DNA of 64,000 nucleotides from NCBI RefSeq assembly GCF_018278905.1, contig NZ_CP046600.1, positions 744,001 to 808,000 of the forward strand, given 5' to 3'. Shown here in pieces: positions 15,948 to 42,317 of this stretch. The DNA comes from Mycobacterium spongiae (GTDB taxonomy: Bacteria > Actinomycetota > Actinomycetes > Mycobacteriales > Mycobacteriaceae). The position numbers were made by a program, and so were the translations under genes. The notes beneath the pieces were generated by a model. It was not told where the DNA came from. It did not search any database and worked only from the letters and a program-made list of their open reading frames with translations. Positions within the stretch are counted from its first letter, which is position 1. Each line of letters opens with the position of its first letter.

Positions 15948-18900
15948 TTACGGTGCGACGCCGCCGGCCCCACCGGTGCCCGCGGTGCCGCCGGTGCCAC
16001 CGCTGCCGCCGCTGACTCCCACCGGGCCGCTGCCTGGGTTGCCGTCGCCGCCGCTGGTGCCAGGGTCGCCGGGAGCCGGGATCCCGATGCCAGCGCCGTC
16101 GTTGCCGGTGCCGCCGTGTCCGCCGTCGCCGCCTTTGCCGCCGTCTCCACCGGTGCCCCCGGTGCCGGTGCCGGTGCCGGTGCCCCCGGCACCGCCGGTC
16201 CCACCGATGGCACCGTCACCGCCAGTCCCACCGGCACCATCCGGACCGGTGTCGTTGCCGTCGCCGCCTCTGCCGCCGGTGCCGCCGCCGCCGCCGGTGC
16301 CGCCGGCGCCGCCGTTGCCGTTGCCGCCGGCACCAGCGTCCCCGCCGATACCGCCATTGCCGGCGGCGCCGCCCGCGCCGCCCGCGCCGCCCATGAAGGG
16401 GCCACTCACAGGGGGTGTAGCACCCCCCTGGCCGCCGGTACCGCCGGTGCCGCCGGCGCCGGCGTCGCCGCCGTTGCCGCCGCCGGCACCACCCACGCCG
16501 CCGTTGCCGCCGTTGCCGGCGGCGCCACCGACGCCGCCTACGCCAGCGCTGTTCGAACCCGGAGCGCTTGTTTCGAGGGGACCGCCCACGCCGCCGGTGC
16601 CGCCGTCGCCGCCGCCACCACCGGCTCCGCCGGTGCCACCGCCAGTGCCACCGATGCCGGCACCGCCGGCACCGCCCTGCCCGCCGACGCCGCCGATACC
16701 GCCGACGCCGCCAGTTCCCGAGTCTAGGACGTCTTCCCCAGAGGCACCGGCCCCGCCGGCGCCGCCAATGCCGCCCTGCCCGCCGGCGCCCCCGTCTCCG
16801 GCGTTCCAGCCAGCACCCGCCGCGGATCCGGCGCCGCCGGCGCCACCGGCGCCGGCCGCACCACCCTGCCCGCCGTCACCGCCTCCGAGGCCGCCGGTAT
16901 TACCGAAGCCGCCTTCACCGCCGCTGCCGCCCTTGCCGCCGGCGCCGCCGTTGCCGTTACCGCCGACACCAGCGTCGCCGCCGATACCGCCGTCGCCACC
17001 GGCGCCGCCGACGCCGCCGTTGCCGCCCTCGCCCGGGGAAATAATAGGACTCCCAAAGCCGCCGGCGCCGCCGTTGCCGCCGGTGCCGCCGGTGCCAGCG
17101 TCGCCGCCGTTGCCACCGCCGGTACCGCCGTTGCCGCCGTTGCCGCCGTTGCCGGCGGCCCCGCCAGCGCCGCCATTGGCGCCAACACCGCTAAGACGAG
17201 TAATGCTTATGCCGCCGTCGCCCCCGTCGCCGCCGGTGCCGCCGGCGCCGCCGATGCCACCGCCAGCAGAACCGATGCCGGCACCGCCGACACCGCCCTC
17301 ACCGCCCGCGCCACCCATACCGCCGGGTCGGCCAGCCGCCTTACCAACAACGCCGTCTCCGCCAATCCCGCCGGTCCCGCCGGTCCCTCCCTCTCCGCCG
17401 GTGCCACCGGTGCCGTTGGCCCCGCCTCCGGCGCCGCCTGCGCCGGCAGCACCGCCTGCACCGCCGGTCCCGCCAGCTCCCGCGTTTCCACCGGCCGCGA
17501 CTGCGCCGCCGTCGCCGCCTTTACCCCCAGCGCCGCCTTGGCCGCCGATGCCGCCGGTCCCGCCGGTGCCGGCGGTGGATCCGGTGCCGCCGGTGCCGGC
17601 GTCGCCGCCTGCGCCGCCGGTGCCACCTATGCCGCCGTCGCCGCCGACGACACCGCTGTTGGCGCTGTTGTCGGTGCCTGCGCCACCAGCACCGCCGGTG
17701 CCGCCTGTGCCGCCTTCACCACCTGTGCCGCCGGCGCCCTGGATGCCGCCCGTGCCGAGGCCCGCGGCGCCGCCGTCACCTCCGGTGCCGCCCTGGCCGC
17801 CGATGCCACCTGTGCCGCCGGTGCCGCCGCCTGCTGCGCCAGTGGTTCCGGTGCCGCCGGTGCCGCCGGTGCCGCCTTGGCCGCCGGTGCCGCCGTCGCC
17901 GGATGAGCCGTCGGCACCCGTGGCCGAGCCGGTGCCGCCAGCACCGGCATCGCCGCCGGTGCCGCCGGTGCCGCCTTGGCCGCCGTCGCCGCCGACGACC
18001 AGCGGGTCGGTGCTGTTGGTGCCCACACCACCCGTGCCGCCGGTGCCGCCGGTGCCGCCGTCGCCGCCTTGACCGCCGGCGCCCTGGATACCGCCGGCGC
18101 CGGCACCGGCGGCCCCGCCGGTGCCGCCGGTGCCGCCTTGGCCACCGGCCGCGCCTTGGCCGCCGTTGCCGCCATCGGCCGCCCCGACGGTGCCGGCACC
18201 GCCTTTGCCGCCGGTGCCGCCTTGGCCGCCGGTGCCGCCGTCGCCGGAGGAGCCGTCGGTGCCGGCGGTGGAGCCGGTGCCGCCGGTGCCAGCGTTGCCG
18301 CCGACGCCACCGAGACCACCCTGGCCGCCGGCGCCGCCGGCGACGCCGTCGTTGGCGCTGTTGTCGGTGCCGGCGCCACCGGTGCCGCCGGTGCCGCCGG
18401 TGCCGCCGTCGCCGCCTTGACCGCCGACGCCTTGGATGCCGCCTGTACCGGCGCCTGCTGCGCCGCCGCTGCCGCCGGCCCCGCCGGCCCCGCCGGTGCC
18501 GCCAGTGGCGCCTTGGGCGCCGGCGCCCACCACGGTGGTGTTGTCCGCGCCCGCGCCGCCGTCGCCCCCGGCCCCGCCGGCGCCGCCGTCACCGGCGGTA
18601 CCGGTAGCGCCCGTGGTGGAGCCGGTGCCAGCGACACCGGCGTCGCCTCCCACGCCACCGTCACCGCCCTGGCCACCGGCCCCGCCGGCCAGCAGCGGAT
18701 CGGTGCTGGCAGTACCGTCTCCGCCGGTGCCGCCTTGGCCCCCGGTGCCGCCGTCGCCGGCGCTGCCGCCGGCGCCTTGGATGCCGGTGCCTGAGCCGGC
18801 GCCGCCGTTTCCGCCGGTGCCGCCGGCGGCTGCGGCGCCGCCGGTTCCGCCGGCGCCATTGTTGCCCTGACCGACGCCGCCTATACCGCCATCGCCGCCG

Positions 18901-42317: not shown

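Follow-up and report, generated by a model that had tools for sequence, protein, structure and literature searches.

PE_PGRS33 and Wag22, the closest described systems, carry a PE domain, a GRPLI linker and a Gly-rich PGRS domain with aromatic loops on its N-terminal side (PMC9436101), and the sail model holds that a hydrophobic foot seats the PGRS domain in the mycomembrane (PMC9436101, PMC10216338). The largest PE/PPE protein of one M. marinum proteome has a mass of 270.5 kDa (PMC11395111). Here, we analyzed a PE_PGRS locus of Mycobacterium spongiae that shares the PE domain, the linker and the N-terminal aromatic loops of these proteins. It lies in a window of 64,000 nucleotides (NZ_CP046600.1, positions 744,001 to 808,000; the window is the whole stretch of DNA analyzed, and positions are counted from its first letter) of a genome assembled as a single contig of 5,581,157 bases. 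We consider it probable that this locus is one giant gene of ~8,800 codons, and that a locally faulty assembly consensus most likely accounts for the frame breaks found in a short patch of it. The locus belongs to a known family, to which it adds an amplified module common across species and a putative anchor-plus-array layout.

Anatomy of the locus and its 348-bp array

The ATG at 42317 and the stop codon at 15948-15950, both on the minus strand like every feature of the locus given below, share the same reading frame and lie 26,370 bases apart, which confirms the two ends proposed in a preliminary description of this DNA. A GGGAG motif located 7 bases 5' of the ATG (42325-42329) may act as a ribosome binding site. 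The PE domain spans residues 4-94 (42036-42308; Pfam PF00934, 112 bits) and is accompanied, as the same description had stated, by a YxxxE motif, YAAAE at residues 87-91 (42045-42059), the sole such match in the first open piece of the frame. A YxxxD/E motif behind the PE helices is a type VII secretion signal. By analogy with the family, the PE domain would pair with a PPE partner and the protein would be exported via ESX-5. Next come the GRPLI linker (residues 112-116, 41970-41984), a motif named in PMC9436101, and a classic PGRS segment with aromatic loops (residues ~117-520, 40758-41969; Pfam PGRS PF21526, 44.5 bits), which is the proposed membrane anchor. The remainder consists mostly of a tandem array of 57 units of 348 bp, or 116 aa, the final one diverged (20640-40466), and a Gly-rich C-terminal tail of 1,563 codons (15951-20639). 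Gly accounts for 51-53% of the residues in both open pieces of the locus, and membership in PE_PGRS was assessed on the intact N-terminal piece.

Among the repeats listed by Tandem Repeats Finder, the array has a period of 348 bp with 56.7 copies, 91% matches and 0% indels between 20761 and 40466. Counting in register gave 20 clean units before the patch, which extends approximately from 33380 to 32380, ~4 units inside it, 32 clean units after it and 1 diverged last unit, for a total of 57. Array statistics were computed on the 52 clean units, the unit listed in the patch and the last unit being dropped. Their mean pairwise identity is 0.901, and 50 of the 52 are distinct at the protein level. 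All 61 Gly columns of the 116-aa unit are invariant, as are 89 of the 116 columns overall, and 18 columns are clearly polymorphic; the array is an acidic, hydrophilic series of 57 modules in which the Gly scaffold is fixed and ~18 other positions vary. The ratio of nonsynonymous to synonymous polymorphism (pN/pS) was 0.098 when single-step codon differences from the consensus were counted, and the NG86 estimate, which includes multi-step codons, gave a higher ratio (dN 0.046 vs dS 0.167).

A real array assembled with the wrong number of copies, collapsed or expanded, would imply a true gene markedly shorter or longer than the one described here. Several observations point that way: arrays of such length are difficult to assemble, eight of the nine checked PE-subtype matches in fragmented genomes run off their contig (9 of 18 checked), whole contigs consisting of array exist (10,965 bp in G119; 3,263 and 3,126 bp in G046; genomes and loci are designated G and L, respectively), and the patch itself reveals an imperfect consensus. 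However, a false expansion would give identical copies, and the 52 clean units are all distinct in DNA with a maximum pairwise identity of 0.9943, so false duplication by the assembler is disfavored; this argument bears on expansion, not on collapse. Overall, we regard a wrong copy number as rather unlikely.

The locus is made of two chemically distinct parts. Phe, Trp and Tyr together reach 4.36 per 100 residues between residues 130 and 520, and fall to 0.08 in the remainder of the first open piece and 0.17 in the second. In terms of the sail model, the aromatic foot along the PGRS is present in residues 130-520 and absent beyond. Because it is devoid of this foot, the array should not sit in the mycomembrane and should rather project from the surface or cover it, while the ~400 residues of classic PGRS that follow the linker would seat the protein in the membrane. 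Twelve usable ordinary PE_PGRS proteins out of 20 showed no such split (3.57 and 3.60). Furthermore, the split recurs in six giants from four species, M. spongiae included (L009, L010, L148, L141, L188 and L189), in which the first 400 residues hold 2.50-4.75 aromatic residues per 100 and the rest 0.04-0.31, and it is weaker in L013 (3.50 then 0.91). These observations suggest an anchor-plus-array layout of these giant PE_PGRS proteins.

Frame breaks in the patch

As sequenced, the frame that begins at the ATG stops after 3,022 residues and meets four in-frame stops before the final one; it reopens at 32573 and then remains open for 5,541 codons. The predicted masses of the two open pieces are 231.6 and 415.8 kDa, and Lys and Arg together account for only ~1% of residues. 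Between ~33,380 and 32,380, the Gly-rich frame moves among all three frames. Aligned with the unit consensus under four scoring schemes, the 1,383 bp of the patch contain 13-15 missing-base and 3-4 extra-base events, for a net shortfall of nine bases (the 348-bp register reads 339 modulo 348). The nine missing bases of the preliminary description hold as this net figure, but not as a simple gap. Likewise, its single 26.4-kb locus stands insofar as one array runs through the patch with equal constraint on both sides, whereas the single open frame is contradicted by the four stops. We took the sequence as given and restored no bases, so no exact protein length is claimed; the ~8,792 residues initially proposed depend on restored bases.

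We observed that the damage is confined to the patch. The clean units, 18,096 bp in total, hold the 348-bp register, pN/pS is 0.116 both before and after the patch, and the mismatch rate within the patch (0.062-0.066) does not exceed that of the clean units (0.076). Since the units are distinct and in register, with their Gly residues kept and constraint equal on both sides, and since the patch combines indels with no excess of mismatches, an assembly error is likelier than decay. The 5,391 codons after the patch contain no stop, although 289 of them are a single step away from a stop codon. The length of a frame free of stops was discarded as a proof of coding and counts as weak evidence, because an incorrect frame at this locus is likewise open for 3,856 codons. 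Two long antisense frames, at 19338-33119 (4,593 codons) and 33126-41693 (2,855 codons) on the plus strand, are probably a by-product of GGC-rich codons.

Other giant arrays, in several assemblies, break frame too, which also favors an assembly error. Frame changes in the M. spongiae genome amount to four at the studied locus and to three, one and two in L011, L012 and L147, respectively, compared with a single one in the 22,110 informative bp of 20 stretches of ordinary PE_PGRS genes. Frame changes close to the gene starts of L013, L146 and L152 were taken as the putative PE-PGRS border, and none was detected in L009, L010, L139, L148, L149, L150, L151 and L153. Among the arrays of other genomes, L143 and L144 contain frame changes and L140, L141 and L142 do not; a giant tract of G006 described below is likewise interrupted.

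Several observations weigh against one giant gene. The sequence as given contains no intact single frame, and could be read at face value: genuine breaks would leave a protein of ~3,022 residues (PE, anchor and ~20 units), the 17 kb behind it being a recently dead tail. Rare variants after the patch, 11 nonsynonymous vs 8 synonymous, agree with this alternative and leave recent constraint in that part unsupported. A mild excess in the patch of changes absent from every clean unit (4-5 in 1,376-1,379 bp vs 15 private changes in 18,096 bp) also agrees with it. The near-identical arrays of L009 and L010, which belong to the same assembly, are free of frame breaks. Furthermore, Pfam matched no family to the array (four units tried) or to the C-terminal tail, protein database searches returned zero matches at the cut-offs used, a structure prediction of four array units from a single sequence without alignment was uninformative (pLDDT 31.3), and four giants (L140, L142, L190 and L193) lack the aromatic split. 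Nevertheless, genuine breaks would require at least 16 indel events within ~1 kb, yet the 32 clean units behind stay in register, and the equal pN/pS, the stop-free codons downstream and the similar breaks inside arrays elsewhere in this and other assemblies all argue against them. We therefore consider genuine breaks unlikely and retain a single giant gene with a locally faulty consensus as the probable explanation.

Probable recombination, array growth and relatives

Linkage between variable sites of the array decays with distance: r2 is 0.41 for sites within 15 bp of each other and 0.03 for those more than 180 bp apart (rho -0.456; none of 300 permutations gave so low a value). All four combinations are present at 2,507 of 3,160 site pairs. 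Recurrent mutation could explain the four combinations but not the decay, which suggests exchange with breakpoints inside the units. Unequal crossing-over or gene conversion with such breakpoints may both grow and diversify the array, making nearly every module a different combination. A similar decay was observed in the array of L141, from another species (rho -0.307, 0 of 300 permutations; four combinations at 1,827 of 3,321 pairs; r2 of 0.16 beyond 180 bp), where pN/pS is 0.026 and 29 of 34 units are distinct. Copying of multi-unit blocks as the chief mode of growth received weak support, as nine repeated two-unit blocks were found where 20 shuffles gave 4.0 on average and never more than 8, and the longest exact matches were not above those obtained with permuted units.

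Fresh arrays exist in the same genome: among complete units, 25 of 30 are identical in L009, whose 348-bp array (3090-13773 of that locus) is part of an uninterrupted 5,673-codon frame, and 14 of 21 are identical in L010. We infer that the arrays were first amplified and then diverged as mosaics. The two diverged arrays, that of the studied locus and that of L141, have a mean identity of ~90%, a level that may be tied to the 10-12% heterology limit of mycobacterial recombination cited in PMC1762029.

Relatives of the PE domain and linker were sought in 396 genomes of the genus, M. spongiae included, and were found in 19 of them at an E value of 1e-41 and in 7 at 1e-45. M. spongiae itself holds 11 relatives at 1e-41, with open frames of up to 5,673 aa, and its second-nearest copy (C1:192441) extends over ~14 kb with frame changes. 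Long frames elsewhere reach 5,409 and 3,198 aa in G184, 4,739 aa in G260, and 4,450 and 3,583 aa in G063. Altogether, PE_PGRS frames above 3,000 aa occur in M. spongiae and four other species, the largest intact one being a 5,808-aa frame of the aromatic-rich kind in G006. The same genome contains, at C1:6180567-6208540 (L191 and L192), a PE domain followed by a ~28-kb Gly-rich tract, which changes frame dozens of times and terminates at a stop codon. The extreme size claimed in the preliminary description is thus upheld as to scale, but it is not unique. Same-subtype long PE_PGRS genes adjoin one another in M. spongiae (C1:1395562, 1403796 and 1410397; 3384516 and 3391945) and look as if locally duplicated. 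The PE family model also exceeded its cut-off in a control genome, that of Escherichia coli, which is unexpected for a mycobacterial family.

Scoring covered up to 150 candidates in each genome, and the module occurred in at least 6 of 28 other genomes, that is, among the matches listed, in at least 6 of the 18 with the PE subtype and in none of the 10 without it. Consensus modules from ten other arrays have 0.33-0.85 of their non-Gly residues in common with the studied module, compared with at most 0.31 for 11 control chunks; the lowest value, 0.33 for L188, is barely over the controls. Frames of at least 1,500 aa occur in 7 of 11 genomes with at most 10 contigs vs 1 of 8 with at least 50 (Fisher p 0.059), and frames of at least 3,000 aa in 4 of 11 vs 0 of 8 (p 0.10), so that contig number as a cause of short frames amounts to a trend at most.

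The array could alternatively be mainly a silent cassette bank supplying other PE_PGRS genes through gene conversion. Its units are mosaic, its modules resemble those of two other M. spongiae loci, L011 (0.85 of non-Gly residues) and L147 (0.76), and the N-terminal region together with upstream DNA, ~1.1 kb in all, is common with L011 at 93%. Yet the protein sequence is under constraint and retains every Gly, the start and the PE domain are complete, and other species display the same two-part layout. These features argue for translation and make the cassette bank highly improbable. The locus itself probably arrived by duplication inside the genome, judging from the DNA shared with L011 and with L010 (745 bp, 88%).

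Genomic context and comparison with known systems

The locus is flanked by a moeA2-type gene (14164-15423, minus strand; Pfam MoeA_N, MoCF_biosynth and MoeA_C) and a groEL2-type chaperonin gene (43895-45520, plus strand; Pfam Cpn60_TCP1), as initially proposed. This interval was searched in relatives, as suggested at the same time: in 49 other genomes, the stretch preceding groEL2 contained no Gly-rich frame, and a shared gene place was rejected for these genomes. These comprised 35 of 40 genomes from a first groEL2 set, which left out M. spongiae itself and four genomes with moeA2 on a separate contig, and all 14 from a second set; some of the upstream stretches were fixed at 9-11 kb, and one was ended by a contig end. 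Between the PE start and groEL2 lies a 190-codon open frame (42959-43528, minus strand), whose product looks cupin-like by eye from a motif. Short frames next to groEL2 in relatives are dehydrogenase-like by eye in L117, L125 and L128 and of unclear kind in L124, and none of the four had a tblastn match in the window (considered for 15424-15947 and 42318-43894); in L122, no such frame was found. The window contains another PE_PGRS gene, whose size is ordinary (875 aa), at 1066-3693 on the minus strand.

We tentatively propose that, in some mycobacteria, giant PE_PGRS proteins of ~4,000-9,000 residues form a class of their own, termed "anchored-array", to which the locus would belong. A conserved module of 115-120 aa would be amplified to as many as ~57 copies, which recombination would reshuffle, and every lineage would show a combinatorial surface coat on one chain. 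Such proteins would have gone largely unseen as fragmented assemblies break, and long-read ones fray, at the arrays, and inventories of PE_PGRS genes built on fragmented genomes may omit the largest members. If the product is a single chain, type VII secretion would pass polypeptides of ~600 kDa or more, well over the 270.5 kDa mentioned above. The array also offers a natural experiment on PGRS structure, with glycines fixed and the remaining positions varied, and it makes it possible to test whether recombination drives the variation of a mycobacterial surface protein. No PE_PGRS of comparable size is described in the literature surveyed, which does not imply absence from print.

Compared with PE_PGRS33 and Wag22, the Gly-rich part of the studied locus extends over ~8,700 codons and is mostly a regular array nearly free of aromatic residues. 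Its closest counterparts in layout are L009 in the same genome, L141 in G184, L188 in G260 and L189 in G063, which have a related PE subtype and an array of 115-120-aa modules with an aromatic-rich start and nearly no aromatic residues thereafter; they differ by shorter, intact frames (4,450-5,673 aa), other gene places and ~24-35 units. Gene conversion between PE_PGRS17 and PE_PGRS18 likewise exchanges sequence between PGRS copies (PMC1762029). However, that exchange takes place between two neighboring genes, whereas at the studied locus the decay of linkage suggests that it occurs among the units of one gene.
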